Source of the DNA: Halobacteriales archaeon YIM A00013
GTDB lineage: Archaea > Halobacteriota > Halobacteria > Halobacteriales > Haloarculaceae
Direction: 5' to 3'
DNA length: 64,000 nucleotides
NCBI GenBank assembly: GCA_025041195.1
Contig: JAKCFM010000001.1
Location: 1,922,001 to 1,986,000, forward strand
Shown: positions 13,928 through 41,055 of the stretch, piece by piece
Position numbering within the stretch: the first letter of the stretch is position 1
Layout of the letters: the number at the start of each line of letters is the position of its first letter
Position numbers and translations under genes: made by a program
Notes under the pieces: model-generated
What the model was told of the DNA's origin: nothing
The model's input: the letters and a program-made list of their open reading frames with translations, nothing else
Databases searched by the model: none

Positions 13928-14842
13928 ATGGCTATCCGGATCGCCGTGGCTCTCTCGATTGGAACTGCAGTTCTTGCCACCAGTATACTGGCACTCGGGG
14001 CAACTGCGGCCGTTTTTGTAGGATCGATACTTCTCGTTGGGCTCAATAATCTGGGCTACGAGACAAGCGTACTCCCCGATTCGGCGTTGCTGTTGGTTCT
14101 CGCAGCCGGTGGTTGTTTGGGGTTGATATACGGCATCTATCGAGTCGCGATTTCGATTCGTCGCGAGCGTAAGGCGCTTGTCCCCACCGAAGAACCCACC
14201 TCAAACCGAGGTGGCGAAGTCTCTGATCGAATCGTCCGGCTATCGCAGCAGTTGGATATCTCAACGCCAGCAGTTCGATTATTGGACACAGCATATCCAA
14301 TATCGTATACGTCGTATTCGCCAGACGCGCCGCTCATCCCATCCACGGATACAAAGCCCACTATCGTCGTATCGAGCGGCCTCTATGAGTTGCTGACACC
14401 TGCCGAGCTTGATGCTGTGCTCGCACACGAACTTGCTCATATTGCAAACGACGATCTCCGGCTCATCACAATGATCCGCTTACCACTGCTGTTTGCAGAG
14501 TCATTGACTAACCAAATTCGCTATCCAACCAACCTTATTGAGATCTTTGGGATGATATTAACCACTGTCGCAACTCTTGGCGTCGGAATAGTAGCACGAG
14601 CGCGAGAGCTCGCGGCTGATCGTGGTGCCACCGCACTGACTGGCGATCCGAACGCCCTGGTAAGTGCACTAGAAGCACTTGAGAAACACGACGAAGGAGA
14701 ACCAGATGATGCGCTCAGAGAATTCACACACTCGGCGAGCTCAATTGCAGTATGCCAGATTCCAGGAGATCGGCAGTGGACACCCAAGCCACGTCACCAT
14801 CCATCACTCAGCCAGCGGACAAACAATCTCAAATCGAAATAG
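13928..14842 (+). CDS. M48-family membrane metalloprotease (HtpX-like)
   Basis: A 304-residue zinc protease. Two hydrophobic helices near residues 3-60 anchor it in the membrane. The active site HELAH (within LAHELAHIANDDL, about residue 168) follows the short LTPAELDAVLA helix, and ARELAADRGATALTG supplies the third zinc ligand. HtpX-like enzymes degrade misfolded membrane proteins. ATG 13928 lies about 30 nt after a TATA-like CATATTC; ATG 13904 would add MKGVSSIQ and is also possible. At 304 residues it is in the normal size range. Confidence 0.85.
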   Translation: MAIRIAVALSIGTAVLATSILALGATAAVFVGSILLVGLNNLGYETSVLPDSALLLVLAAGGCLGLIYGIYRVAISIRRERKALVPTEEPTSNRGGEVSDRIVRLSQQLDISTPAVRLLDTAYPISYTSYSPDAPLIPSTDTKPTIVVSSGLYELLTPAELDAVLAHELAHIANDDLRLITMIRLPLLFAESLTNQIRYPTNLIEIFGMILTTVATLGVGIVARARELAADRGATALTGDPNALVSALEALEKHDEGEPDDALREFTHSASSIAVCQIPGDRQWTPKPRHHPSLSQRTNNLKSK

Positions 14843-36280: not shown

Positions 36281-38248
36281 ATGAGCGACATACCGTCGAC
36301 AGACACCGTCGTTTATGAGCCATCACAGGAGACGATCGAATCGACGAACGTCTACGAATTCATGGCAGCACACGACATTGAAGGAATCGACGCGCTGATC
36401 GAGCGGAGTCGCGATCTGGACTGGTTCTGGGACGAACTCGTCGACTATCTCGGGATTGAGTTTTACGAGTCCTACGACGACGTCCGTGCACACGACGGTG
36501 GGCCACAGTTCACGGAGTGGTATCCCGGCGGGAAAATAAACATCGCGCACAACGTGGTCGATCGACACGGCCATCCGGAGAGCGAACACCGAAACACGGT
36601 GGCGACGATCTGGGAGGGTGAAGACGGGACCGTTCGGGAGATCACCTATCACGAGCTGTATCGACAGTCCAATCGGGTGGCAAACGCACTCGCCGAGCGA
36701 GGCATCGAGGCCGGCGACACCGTCGGACTCTACATGCCGATGGTTCCAGAAGTCGTCTCGATACTGTATGGCTGTTTCAAGGTTGGGGCGATAGCCGTAC
36801 CAATCTTCTCCGGATTTGGCGTCGACGCGACCGCAACCCGGATTTCGGATGCAGAGTGTTCAGTGCTGTTCACCGGTGATGGCTTTCTCCGCCGTGGAAG
36901 CGAGATTCACCTGAAAGACGCGGCCGATCGGGCGATCGAACAGGCTGGCCATGTCGAGCACACCATCGTCTACGACCGACTCGGTGCGGACGTGCCGTTC
37001 GATCCATCGCGGGATGCGTGGTGGGACGACGCCGTCGAATCGCAGTCGCCGTCGTTTGAAACCAGAGAACTCGACTCGACGGACGAGTCGATGTTGCTCT
37101 ACTCGTCGGGGACGACGGGAATGCCAAAGGGGATCGTCCACACGCATGCGGGCGTTCAGCTCCAGTGTGCCAAAGAGATCTACTTCGGCTTCGATCACAC
37201 GCCCGGCGATCGCTTTTTCTGGGTATCTGACATCGGCTGGATGATGGGCCCCTGGACCCTGATCGGCAATCACACGTTCGGTGGTACGGTGTTCATCTAC
37301 GAGGGGGCGCCAGATTATCCCGAGCCCGATCGGTTCTGGGAGATGATCGATCGCCACAAGCTCTCGGTGTTTGGGATCTCGCCCACGGCAATCCGCGCGC
37401 TGCGAAAGCAGGGCAACGGCTGGCTCGATGGCCACGATCTCTCCTCGCTCCGGTTGCTCGGCTCGACGGGCGAGCCGTGGGATCCAGAGTCCTGGTACTG
37501 GTTTTTCGAGGCGGTTGGCGACGGTGAGCTGCCTATCATCAACATCTCAGGTGGGACCGAGATCTGTGGCTGTTTCCTCATGCCGTTGCCGGGCATGTCG
37601 CTCAAACCGTGTACGCTTGGAAAACCAGGGCTCGGAATGGCAGTGGACATCGTCAATCAAGCGGGGACAAGCGTCGTAGACAGTAACGAACGCGGCTTTC
37701 TCGTCGCGAGGGATTCAGCTCCCTCAATGACGAAGTCGCTGTGGTCCGGCGACGACCGATATCTCGCCGAGTACTGGTCCACGTTCGAGGAGCCACCACT
37801 CTGGGACCACGGCGACTGGGCACAGAAAGACGAAGACGGCTTCTGGTTCCTCCACGGACGCGCTGACGATGCACTCAACGTGGCCGGCCGGAAGGTCGGT
37901 CCAGCAGAGGTCGAAGGAGCGCTCTTAGAATCCGAGGCCGTCAATCAGGCCGCCGCAATTGGAGCTGCCGACGACACCACCGGTACCGCCGTCGTCAGCT
38001 ATGTGATTCTTGAGGAGGGGATCGACGAGCGCGACGCCCTCCGCGAGGAGTTGACCGAACTCGTCGGAACCGAACTCGGCAAGCCGTTCCGACCGCGGGA
38101 GATCCTCTTTGTCGATGCGTTTCCCAAAACACAGTCAGGAAAGATCGTCCGGCGAGCAATTGAGGCGGTGTACAACGGCGAGGAGCTCGGTGATCTCTCG
38201 AGTATTGAAAACCCGGAAGCGATCGATCGTCTCGAAGATGCCAGGTAG
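36281..38248 (+). CDS. Acyl-CoA synthetase (acetyl/propionyl-CoA synthetase type)
   Basis: A 655-residue AMP-forming ligase. LLYSSGTTGMPKGIVHTHAG (about residues 275-294) is the P-loop-like A3 motif, INISGGTEICGCF corresponds to A5, and WFLHGRADDALNVAGRKVGP to the hinge. QSGKIVRRAIEAV near the end carries the catalytic Lys. Domain order and length match acetyl-CoA synthetase relatives. Proximity to methylmalonyl-CoA mutase and epimerase suggests propionate activation, which is inference. Confidence 0.85.
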   Translation: MSDIPSTDTVVYEPSQETIESTNVYEFMAAHDIEGIDALIERSRDLDWFWDELVDYLGIEFYESYDDVRAHDGGPQFTEWYPGGKINIAHNVVDRHGHPESEHRNTVATIWEGEDGTVREITYHELYRQSNRVANALAERGIEAGDTVGLYMPMVPEVVSILYGCFKVGAIAVPIFSGFGVDATATRISDAECSVLFTGDGFLRRGSEIHLKDAADRAIEQAGHVEHTIVYDRLGADVPFDPSRDAWWDDAVESQSPSFETRELDSTDESMLLYSSGTTGMPKGIVHTHAGVQLQCAKEIYFGFDHTPGDRFFWVSDIGWMMGPWTLIGNHTFGGTVFIYEGAPDYPEPDRFWEMIDRHKLSVFGISPTAIRALRKQGNGWLDGHDLSSLRLLGSTGEPWDPESWYWFFEAVGDGELPIINISGGTEICGCFLMPLPGMSLKPCTLGKPGLGMAVDIVNQAGTSVVDSNERGFLVARDSAPSMTKSLWSGDDRYLAEYWSTFEEPPLWDHGDWAQKDEDGFWFLHGRADDALNVAGRKVGPAEVEGALLESEAVNQAAAIGAADDTTGTAVVSYVILEEGIDERDALREELTELVGTELGKPFRPREILFVDAFPKTQSGKIVRRAIEAVYNGEELGDLSSIENPEAIDRLEDAR

Positions 38249-38685
38249 GCGAAGAATTATCATCACTGGTGCGTAAATGTCAGTATATGGATGATAACTC
38301 TTCCAGCACAGATCCGCTCGTTCCGGTGCAAATCGACGACATTGAATCCGGACAGCTCGAGTGGCGCAGAATCGGTTGTTTTCTTGCGGTAACGTTTGGG
38401 GTTTCGTGGCTTGTTGCCGTCGTGATGTATCTGACTGGCGGGATTGGATTGGAGAGCCAGCAAGCGTTTTCCGGCATCAGATACGCGACAATCTTGCTTC
38501 CGCTCTACATGTTTGGGCCCGCAATCGGAGTTATCGGAGTTACAAGGCTAACACCCCGCTCTTCAGGGCGGGGATACAGCCGACAACTCATACACTAACC
38601 ACGTTCGATGGCACTGCGGGATATTCCACGTCCAATCGTTACTTTTAATATACAATTCTTCATAACTTGTTATGAACACAGTCCG

Positions 38686-39954
38686 ATGCTGGAGACAACC
38701 CGCACATATCGAGCGAAAATCGTCAACCACTCTCAAGTGAGTGACGATCTCGATGACTGCGGGTACTCGGCATCCAAACTGTGGAACGTCGCTCGCTACC
38801 ACATCCAACAAGAATGGGATGATACTGGCGAGATTCCGTCTGAGGCCGACCTCAAGCGCGAATTGAAAGACCACGAACGATACAGTGACCTACATTCTCA
38901 GTCAAGTCAGCGTGTTCTCGAAGAGCTCGCTGAGTCGTTCACCGGCTGGTTCAAAAAACACAAGAACGGCGACACAGACGCGAATCCACCCGGCTACCGC
39001 AAACACGGCGACGAATATCCACGCTCCACCGTAACGTGGAAGCAGAAGGGTATCAAACACGATTCCAAGCACAACCAACTCCGTCTGAGCAAAGGCTTCA
39101 ACCTGAAGAACCACCGCTCAGACTTCATCCTCGTAGAGTACGAGACGCGACCGGACGTAACCGTGGAGAACATCCAGCAGGTACGAGCCGTGTGGAACGG
39201 CGACCACTGGGAACTCCACCTCGTCTGCAAGGTCGAAATTCCTGTTGAGGACGCTCCCGGCGACAACACCGCGGGCATCGACCTTGGCATCAGCAACTAC
39301 CTCGCTATCGCCTACGACGATGGGGACGCTGAGTTGTATCCAGGGAATGTTCTCAAGCAGGACAAGCACTACTTCACCCGCGACGAGTACGACACTGAGG
39401 GCGAAGACGGCCCCTCTCGTTGTGCGCTTCGTGCCCGACAGAAGTTGTCTCGGCGGAAAAACCACTTCCTGCACGCCCTCGCCAAGCACGTCGTAGAGCG
39501 GTGCATCGACCATGATATCGGTCGCATCGCCATCGGTGACTTGAGCGATATTCGTGAGGATGAGAACGGTGACTCACGGAACTGGGGCAAGCGTGGGAAC
39601 AAGAAACTCCACGGCTGGGAGTTCGACCGCTTCACGACCTTGCTCGAATACAAAGCCGAAGAATACGGTATCCTCGTTGACCGCACAAGCGAGCGAGATA
39701 CAAGCAAGACGTGTTCGTGCTGTGGTCGAAAGCGTGACGCGAATCGTGTGGAGCGTGGCTTATACGTCTGTGAGTCATGCAGTGTGACGATGAACGCGGA
39801 CGTGAATGGTGCGGTGAACATTCGCAGAAAGATAACTCAGAATCCTCCAACAGGGGATATGAGTAACGGTCGTTTGGCACGGCCAGTAGCCTACCTGTTC
39901 AACCAAACCAATGGGTCGTTCCACCCGAGGGAACAGGTGGGTTGCGAACCTTAA
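38686..39954 (+). CDS. tnpB: TnpB RNA-guided nuclease (IS200/IS605 family)
   Basis: A 422-residue protein. RuvC-I is GIDLGISNYLAIAY (about residues 195-208). The zinc finger TCSCCGRKRD...LYVCESC lies near residues 344-369, and the final RuvC Asp is in NADVNGAVNI. At the RuvC-II position the usual acidic residue after the first strand is Gly: IAIGDLSDIRED. TnpB proteins cut DNA guided by an RNA made from the element's right end and help it persist. ATG 38686 is preferred to the open frame at 38608. Confidence 0.9.
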   Translation: MLETTRTYRAKIVNHSQVSDDLDDCGYSASKLWNVARYHIQQEWDDTGEIPSEADLKRELKDHERYSDLHSQSSQRVLEELAESFTGWFKKHKNGDTDANPPGYRKHGDEYPRSTVTWKQKGIKHDSKHNQLRLSKGFNLKNHRSDFILVEYETRPDVTVENIQQVRAVWNGDHWELHLVCKVEIPVEDAPGDNTAGIDLGISNYLAIAYDDGDAELYPGNVLKQDKHYFTRDEYDTEGEDGPSRCALRARQKLSRRKNHFLHALAKHVVERCIDHDIGRIAIGDLSDIREDENGDSRNWGKRGNKKLHGWEFDRFTTLLEYKAEEYGILVDRTSERDTSKTCSCCGRKRDANRVERGLYVCESCSVTMNADVNGAVNIRRKITQNPPTGDMSNGRLARPVAYLFNQTNGSFHPREQVGCEP

Positions 39955-40106
39955 TATCCCAACGCTGAGCAAACCGAAGGTTTGCGAGGTTCGCGAATCC
40001 TCGATTCGCTCGACTCGGGAATCCTCGTCGCCAGACCATGTCTGGCGGGCAACCAGAACTGCTCTGCAGTTCTGGGGACGCCCTATAGGCCCGGGAGGAT
40101 GTCAAT
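39955..40106 (+). ncRNA. Candidate omega RNA (reRNA) region of the tnpB element
   Basis: Between the tnpB stop and the right end four perfect hairpins occur in a row: GCAAACC/GGTTTGC (39969-39985), GCGAATC/GATTCGC (39993-40009), CGCCAGAC/GTCTGGCG (40029-40047) and CCAGAACTG/CAGTTCTGG (40053-40075). TnpB guide RNAs are known to come from exactly this part of such elements and to extend past the right end into flanking DNA. The 5' end of the RNA, probably inside tnpB, cannot be placed. Confidence 0.55.
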
Positions 40107-40350
40107 TCACCACCGTAGTGGGCGTGTTTCTGGCCTGGATAACGCTCCGCGGTGAGAGCGTCTGGCCGGCCGTTATCGGACACGCCGTAATCAACACCAC
40201 GACGCCACTGGTCATCCTACTCGATGTTGATATGCCCCAGTATCTCATCGGGCCGGTGATAACTGGCGTTGTGGGCTCGGTTCCGTTTGCGGTAGTCGCA
40301 TGCTGGTTGCTGCTTCGAGACGGCTCGTTTGCCGTGCCAATGCGCGCCAC

Positions 40351-41055
40351 TCAGGAATGAATCGCAGACAGCGGGATCTGGTCTGGCTCTGGAGCCCCGT
40401 TCGACCCGATCGCAACGTCACCAACGCGGTCTGGAGCCGGGAACGCAATCGTTGCACCCGCTCGCAACGGCGCGATGACGCCACCGATGATCGTCGCCGG
40501 GGTTGAAAGCGATTCACGGAGGACGACGGTTGTTGTCGGCTCGATCTCGTGGGACTCACAGAGCGTGCTGGCCTTGGTCAACAGCATACTGTGGGTGTAC
40601 TGCTCGGTGGCCGTCTCTAGCACTGTCGCGGTCGGTTCGACGGTATCCGGTGGCGCTGTTGGATTCTCACTCCAGACCTCTCCTTCGAAGTGAGCGATGG
40701 TGGGCTGGGCTGGCACCGCTCCGTAGCCGATTCGCTTCGTCGTGGTGTCGAGCGCCGAAACAGCATCGGTCGGGCCCACGATGGCCTTCGTTCGCTCGAC
40801 CCCGTCGATCGAAACGGCGGCACCCAACAGACTGGCACCCAGGAATGTGAAAATTGATTCCGGCGCATCAGGTTCACAGAGGCCAACCCGATCACCAGCA
40901 CGAACGCCGTAATGGCGCAACAGATTGCCCACTTTCCAGGCAGTAGTACAGAACCGACGGTAATCGTACGCCCGGCCACTCGCAGCCCCCAGCAGCGCAG
41001 GCGCGTTTGAGCGCCGCTCTCTGGCCACGAGCTCACCGAGTCGATCGATCGCCAT
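40351..41055 (-). CDS. Short AMP-binding-like protein
   Basis: A 234-residue protein resembling the N-terminal region of AMP-dependent synthetases (SGRAYDYRRFCTTAWKVGNL, YGVRAGDRVGLCEPDAPESI, FTFLGASLLGAAVSIDGVER). The ATP-binding A3 loop, the hinge and the catalytic Lys are absent, so it cannot be a complete ligase. It may be a substrate-binding or regulatory relative, or a long-standing truncation. It follows the dnaJ stop by 38 nt on the same strand and overlaps the broken CPBP gene's stop by 10 nt. Confidence 0.65.
   Translation of the reverse strand: MAIDRLGELVARERRSNAPALLGAASGRAYDYRRFCTTAWKVGNLLRHYGVRAGDRVGLCEPDAPESIFTFLGASLLGAAVSIDGVERTKAIVGPTDAVSALDTTTKRIGYGAVPAQPTIAHFEGEVWSENPTAPPDTVEPTATVLETATEQYTHSMLLTKASTLCESHEIEPTTTVVLRESLSTPATIIGGVIAPLRAGATIAFPAPDRVGDVAIGSNGAPEPDQIPLSAIHS

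Follow-up and report, generated by a model that had tools for sequence, protein, structure and literature searches.

The guide RNA that overlies the 3' end of tnpB in haloarchaeal IS1341 elements, RF02656 (sot0042), is termed omega RNA in the portions of PMC12558985 consulted here. Small repeats that fold into one or two hairpins have been described from several other settings, given here as far as excerpts of the respective papers go. SMR-A of Haloquadratum walsbyi, a non-coding haloarchaeal repeat, is about 110 bp long, has conspicuous inverted repeats at its ends and sits in near-terminal palindromes of IS605-type elements (PMC3119063). CGTC-tagged REP dimers have two short stems with outward tags, occur both between and within genes and have no known transposase (PMC3733652), while in REPINs, for which a RAYT Y1 transposase is suspected, the palindrome doublet is the unit and single-stranded DNA hairpins are formed (PMC3116915). 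Mitochondrial double-hairpin or repetitive hairpin elements are small single or double hairpins found between genes as well as within rRNA genes and reading frames (PMC2800124).

The locus compared here with these systems lies in a window of 64,000 nucleotides (positions 1,922,001 to 1,986,000 of contig JAKCFM010000001.1) from Halobacteriales archaeon YIM A00013; C1, C2 and C3 denote contigs of the same genome (G000), and all window features are given on the forward strand. An IS1341-type element (IS200/IS605 superfamily, solo tnpB) occupies 38535..40105. Similarity to a sister element on C2, about 90% identical, ceases at 40105, so the right end reads ..GGATGTCAA. The exact left base probably follows the boundary 38534/38535, since TTAT, the probable target motif (TAM; 38531..38534), likewise stands 5' of the left end in the C2 copy and, by eye, in six PLSDB plasmid relatives (L193-L196, L198 and L199). 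The left-end palindrome (38554..38573), which is empty here by comparison with the C2 copy, gives a weak partial match to RF02656 (12.8 bits, E 2.4). The tnpB reading frame (38686..39954, 422 aa) encodes the OrfB_IS605 (PF01385, E 7e-16) and TNB zinc-ribbon (PF07282, E 6e-22) domains of TnpB, both above cut-off, and its product matches the TnpB of PDB entry 8bf8 (E 7.2e-12). The TnpB domains, the palindromes near both ends and TTAT at the left flank together place the element in the IS1341 type. The aspartates of RuvC-I and RuvC-III are present in this TnpB, the usual glutamate position of RuvC-II is glycine (IAIGDL, with IAIGDL or IAVGDL in four compared relatives), and a glutamate before TSK is common to the five TnpB proteins compared by eye. 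Rearranged RuvC sites can be active. No passage on a rearranged TnpB catalytic site was found in the consulted portions of PMC10432273.

The sequence-only reading had placed the right end of the element against a broken CPBP gene, from which the guide would be read. CPBP sequence does begin at 40106, where a C-terminal remnant of an Rce1-like CPBP gene (40106..40360) matches positions 62-92 of the 93 in PF02517; the window from 40106 on is 87% identical to a syntenic locus in G227, a genome of the same genus. The N-terminal remnant (38284..38534) has no Pfam match when taken alone, and window positions 38000-38535 are 88% identical to the same G227 locus, in which the CPBP gene is intact with an open frame of 331 codons. 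About 468 bp of that gene, including the EEFGWR motif, are missing from the window between the element flanks, so the break is no simple insertion. The presumed guide, TTCACCACC.. (40106..40125, after TGTCAA), is thus CPBP coding sequence, yet excision of the element would not restore the gene. The matching stretch of G227 is preceded by CTAT, which is close to TTAT, and it is possible that an original insertion at a CTAT/TTAT-like site was followed by a deletion between two such motifs.

The guide-RNA region of the element, 39830..40105, overlaps the 3' end of tnpB. RF02656 matches positions 39830-40021 with 64 bits (E 1.4e-15), which does not reach the gathering score of 88, and the region is therefore called sot0042-like; at gathering thresholds, Rfam identified only four tRNAs in the whole window. 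Though below threshold, this match at the 3' end of an IS1341-type tnpB bears out the earlier suggestion that the TnpB guide RNA is located here. In its downstream part stand four perfect hairpins, at 39969-40075, each with a loop of three nucleotides: H1 at 39969-39985 (7 bp, loop GAA), H2 at 39993-40009 (7 bp, loop CTC), H3 at 40029-40047 (8 bp, loop CAT) and H4 at 40053-40075 (10 bp, loop TCT). They had been described as perfect, regularly spaced stems of 7, 7, 8 and 9 bp. The perfect pairing and the first three lengths hold, the last stem is one pair longer, and the regular spacing does not hold, as the gaps of 7, 19 and 5 nt arrange the hairpins in two pairs. The RNA fold of 39940-40130 is more stable than expected (z -3.9, with 1 of 200 shuffles equally good), as is the DNA fold of 39955-40105 (z -4.9, 0 of 200). 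A comparison of 39960-40106 with a phage collection returned no record matching at E 0.01.

Alignment with relatives resolves the two pairs into two inserts. Module B (H1+H2; 39965..40013, 49 nt) interrupts the loop of the core's last hairpin, CCCAACG..CTCGGG. Module M (H3+H4; 40027..40079, 53 nt) interrupts the right-end palindrome within its 5' arm and separates that arm (40022..40026, delimited against module-free relatives) from the remainder (40080..40096), a weak fifth hairpin whose stem contains a mismatch when aligned with the C2 copy. Seven plasmid relatives were fetched from the 15 among the matches listed (96 PLSDB records had a match), and six of these, the same L193-L196, L198 and L199 as above, carry neither module. 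They are 74-86% identical in DNA, have an annotated TnpB or transposase gene, and read CCCAACG-CTCGGGA followed by the right-end hairpin and the TCAA end; the seventh, L197, carries the H2 side of H1+H2.

The two modules also occur independently of each other. B is further absent from L036/L092 and L240, and the M site is empty in L037 and L046 (CCTC^GCCC) and in L193 (CCTC^GCTC) and filled in L002, L036 and others. Both modules are present in the window and the C2 copy, and M alone in L036, which reads like L092 of Haloferax larsenii, and in L240 of H. mediterranei. B alone was found in 19 of 24 rows of a set that was fetched for similarity, so that this fraction has no meaning as a frequency; the other five rows comprise two with both modules, two with B and a different right-end pair (L048, L049) and one whose right end is lost. 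The possibility that B and M form one unit was rejected, as L036 and L037 separate them. In L240, from plasmid pHME505 of the culturable laboratory strain H. mediterranei ATCC 33500, the tnpB next to the M-filled right end (337172-337260) is frameshifted.

The same core occurs in the six relatives without the hairpins, which shows that the core lies mostly inside the tnpB frame and that the four hairpins are additions. Compared with the described sot0042/omega RNA (excerpts of PMC12558985), the window region has the same place over the tnpB 3' end, the same core, the same last hairpin with ..GGGAATC and the right-end hairpin, and it differs by extra double hairpins of 49 and 53 nt in two loops. 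RF02656 scored 98, 95, 89.2, 87.5, 85.1 and 80.8 bits on the six module-free relatives, three of which pass the cut-off of 88, against 64 bits in the window and 49.9 bits in the C2 copy. Of the loci with M only, L092 scored 80 bits, just below the module-free range, and L240 63.6 bits. Guide-RNA searches with covariance models may miss elements whose loops have been invaded, if the inserts are what lowers the score.

Pairing is kept while the sequences of both modules change. Among 20 distinct copies of M, 97.8% of the cells are paired, and double-changed cells number 9 compared with 1.9 after shuffling, where none of 500 shuffles reached as many; by a stricter measure, pairs with double-sided change number 3 against 1.4, a value reached by 33 of 500 shuffles. 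M is constant at its ends, in its spacer and at most stem pairs and varies strongly in the loop of its second hairpin; most changes in its stems are compensated. B is present with compensatory changes in a 21-row alignment (A6), in whose 19 distinct rows 98.5% of the cells are paired, with 14 double-changed cells against 4.8 (0 of 500 as high) and, on the stricter measure, 3 pairs against 1.7 (56 of 500 as high); further pair types of B show no excess over shuffles (500 of 500). As the rows of both alignments are related, this evidence is good and not overwhelming. In the sampled rows B occupies a single position, its H2 is nearly invariant, and it looks fixed rather than mobile.

This behaviour of B is one argument for the hairpins being an intrinsic, selected scaffold bound by TnpB, with H1+H2 as an extended stem and H3+H4 as an extended right-end hairpin. 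The position fits, H1 covaries and H2 is nearly invariant across rows from several families of the order, and the RNA fold of 39830-40125 is strong (z -5.6). The six relatives, however, lack all four hairpins at 74-86% DNA identity and reach higher RF02656 scores, and M is found in tnpB coding sequence and at apparent left ends, with other pairs in 16S and phosphatase genes, where no scaffold is expected. An intrinsic scaffold is therefore considered unlikely, and the earlier reading of the four hairpins as the scaffold gives way to one of two separate inserts. In the predicted folds both B and M fold on themselves within the guide RNA. The outer stem of the right end forms in both the RNA and the DNA folds, and the base helix around H1+H2 is partial in the DNA fold and meets competing pairings in the RNA fold. 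Such inserts could nevertheless be used by the RNA.

Module M was also found at unrelated places. Among 392 genomes of the order, 10 contain matches to a strict M pattern, 16 in all, and the reversed pattern has none; the window's own M differs from the strict pattern by one base and is outside the 16. In the GTDB contig collection a looser pattern matched 12 stretches; each bears a haloarchaeal name, and this set overlaps with the strict one. The 22 distinct places comprise seven right-end palindromes, in the orientation of the window, 12 apparent left ends, two tnpB genes, both in this genome, and one unclear case (L067). At the apparent left ends M stands in the opposite orientation, which is the same site on the other strand of the palindrome; this reading was checked against neighbouring tnpA/tnpB for C2:661242 only. 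Near-terminal palindromes of IS605-type elements thus account for 19 of the 22 places. Most copies are 51-53 nt long and the shortest 47 nt (leading G counted), and the ends of the insert vary by 0-2 nt among sites, among which no clean insertion rule was found.

H3+H4 might instead be additional hairpins for transposase binding, and so belong to the ordinary terminal structures of an insertion sequence. They do lie in the right-end palindrome, and similar hairpins occur at the left end of the C2 copy, where two tandem pairs unrelated to each other in sequence (716869-716976) fill the palindrome left unoccupied in the window copy. H3+H4 interrupt the canonical palindrome, however, and the same module is found inside tnpB genes, in which further hairpin pairs are also present. 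Ordinary terminal hairpins, an improbable reading on this evidence, were dropped when the module was found inside genes.

A wider class of such pairs became apparent in an unselected scan, compared with first-order shuffles, that asked for two neighbouring perfect stems, each 7 bp or longer, whose loops are of equal length and which lie 2-10 nt from each other. In 1.07 Mb of this genome (C2, C3 and the window), 14 pairs with 3-nt loops were found, two of which are H1+H2 and H3+H4, and none was found in any of ten shuffles. The pairs differ in sequence and have a common build. In a 398-kb piece of G381, from the same genus, there were 37 (shuffled mean 0.2), a number that includes neighbours in rows, in which n hairpins give n-1 pairs; 398 kb of G055, from another family, held one (shuffled mean 0.1), indicating a patchy distribution. 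Equal loops of 4-8 nt gave no pairs in this genome and three in the G381 piece, and a looser count in this genome (loops of 3 or 4 nt, gaps up to 14 nt) gave 14 pairs against 0, 4, 0, 1 and 0 in five shuffles. Single hairpins with a 3-nt loop and a stem of 7 bp or more are frequent, at 159 in the 1.07 Mb compared with 66-82 in shuffles, as might be expected if the hairpins arose by chance in GC-rich DNA. The excess of pairs over shuffles and their conservation with compensatory changes leave chance with almost no credit as an explanation.

Paired hairpins also differ from single ones in their loops. The closing base is C in 26 of 28 paired hairpins of this genome and 50 of 51 in G381, compared with 43 of 131 and 34 of 81 single hairpins, respectively. 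Loops of the GNA/TNC kind make up 14 of 28 and 33 of 51 in pairs and 25 of 131 and 11 of 81 in single hairpins, and both shares in pairs are also above those in shuffles. With stems of at least 9 bp, paired hairpins have such loops in none of four cases in this genome and in nine of 13 in G381, and one of the four window loops (GAA of H1) is of this kind. Within a partly selected set of 190 hairpins, which contains overlapping pairs from rows and partly similarity-fetched loci, 172 have 3-nt loops. GNA loops on G-C stems are reported to form extraordinarily stable DNA mini-hairpins (PMC4686876, in excerpt).

One family within this class, type I (TGTC-hairpin-TGCTA-hairpin-GATG), was matched 78 times, in 31 of 392 genomes; G381 alone accounts for 26 of these matches, and the reversed control gave none. 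Of the 78, 62 were listed and 55 of these are distinct; in them the arms are perfect in 43 of 53 first and 43 of 54 second hairpins, compared with 11.3 and 13.7 after exchange of partners. Two first and one second hairpin of even length were left out of these counts, and the outer three pairs are set by the pattern. On C2 of G381 (L200-L219), nine hairpins stand in a row at 163593-163799 and six at 164002-164156. The same contig has further triloop rows, for example at 14294-14600 and 319975-320108.

Stems that stay perfect while their sequences change might also be produced in place, without mobility, if palindromes arise and are corrected by template switching (quasi-palindrome correction). 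The loops do vary freely and are often the reverse complement of one another (TAC/GTA, TTC/GAA), and the stems remain perfect. The process would hardly place nearly the same module, with ends and spacer conserved, at unrelated places, as seen in 13 full or partial matches in G381, or spread the type I pattern over 31 of 392 genomes. We regard template switching as the sole origin as quite unlikely, although it may keep the stems perfect after insertion.

The host sites of the pairs extend well beyond guide RNAs. A 16S gene on C2 (L144), one of two 16S matches in this genome and covered over its full length by the archaeal SSU model, contains a 52-nt pair at G000:C2:743045-743096, which is absent, as judged from match length, from eight other 16S matches in seven genomes of the genus, including the copy on C1; three of the eight were aligned. 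Hairpin expansion segments of 5S rRNA in some haloarchaea (108 nt) and in thermoanaerobacteria (two hairpins, 46 nt) recall this insert, by description, in the excerpts of PMC7812874. A low-molecular-weight phosphatase gene (PF01451) holds a 51-nt pair at G000:C2:145335-145385 that adds 17 codons with the frame left open and is absent from all four aligned homologues; it is to this insert that the module with 13 full or partial matches in G381 is similar. The Y1 transposase family PF01797 has three matches in this genome, at two places, both on C2, and in both genes a pair stands beside the PKYR motif, with the frame open at 661456-661499 and with a stop at 437125-437163.

Taken as a whole, the four hairpins are probably two separately acquired hairpin-pair modules within the guide-RNA region of an IS1341-type TnpB element, resembling mobile repeats of the REP or SMR kind, and we infer that the modules are non-autonomous repeats of the REP-doublet or SMR sort. 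Their moving form would be a hairpin of single-stranded DNA with very stable triloops, and palindromes would be their preferred sites. Three features suggest movement as folded single-stranded DNA, as in IS200/IS605: the triloop signature, the palindrome preference and the absence of any clean target duplication. Mobilisation would occur in trans, and the first candidate helper is a Y1 transposase of the IS200/IS605 family, which in this genome has only the two places named above, each interrupted by a pair. The presence of a pair inside these genes does not show that they mobilise pairs, and neither a transposase associated with the modules nor excision nor movement in real time was observed. 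B and M would then be passengers in the guide RNA, and their self-folding would explain why they are tolerated there.

Confidence is about evenly divided on the broader proposal that these modules belong to an undescribed class of haloarchaeal mobile DNA that is set by shape. Its members would be about 50 nt long, with two perfect stems of 7-11 bp a few nucleotides apart and C-G-closed 3-nt loops, often GNA/TNC; stems would be replaced while pairing and geometry persist, rows would reach nine hairpins, and movement would be as single-stranded hairpins with a preference for palindromes. Such a class would have entered guide RNAs, transposase genes, a reading frame and a 16S gene. Among the matches listed in open-licence PMC papers, none describes triloop hairpin pairs from haloarchaea, which is weak evidence of absence.

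Strict triloop geometry combined with changing stems is an unusual sign of selection on the shape of single-stranded DNA or RNA. Provided that the modules do move, the tolerance of a guide scaffold for extra RNA becomes directly testable, loop by loop, with the variants found in nature (empty, B, M and both). The genome's possession of one 16S gene with the 52-nt hairpin insert and another without it likewise amounts to a natural experiment in ribosome heterogeneity. Triloop pairs may also provide a handle on the movement of REP-like elements, which have long been known and whose mechanism is unclear.

Each of the known repeat systems fits in part, and each fails at least one tested feature or was compared by description. 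Integron attC sites were considered as an identity and dropped on account of their general features. SMR-A is the likeness from the same group of organisms, being non-coding and located in the same kind of palindrome as M. By description, however, it is set apart from M, which has 51-53 nt, short inverted ends and two triloop hairpins, and the Haloquadratum plasmids PL47 and PL100 (145.8 kb) held one weak pair only (stems of 6 and 6 bp, loops of 3 and 4 nt). CGTC-tagged REP dimers recall M in that it reads CGTC..GACG at many sites; their stems start with A-T and their loops have 4-5 nt, in contrast to the 3-nt loops on C-G of the haloarchaeal pairs, and no word in PMC3733652 starts with 'Halo'. 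The mitochondrial elements, likened by description, resemble the pairs in the range of their host sites and, according to the excerpts of PMC2800124, in having conserved stems and variable loops, and differ in residing in organelle DNA. REPINs share with the haloarchaeal pairs the doublet as unit, and the movement proposed for the pairs would add hairpins in single-stranded DNA and a candidate Y1 transposase to the likeness, but in REPINs the halves are inverted copies that pair across the spacer, whereas here each half folds on itself and the two stems differ in sequence.
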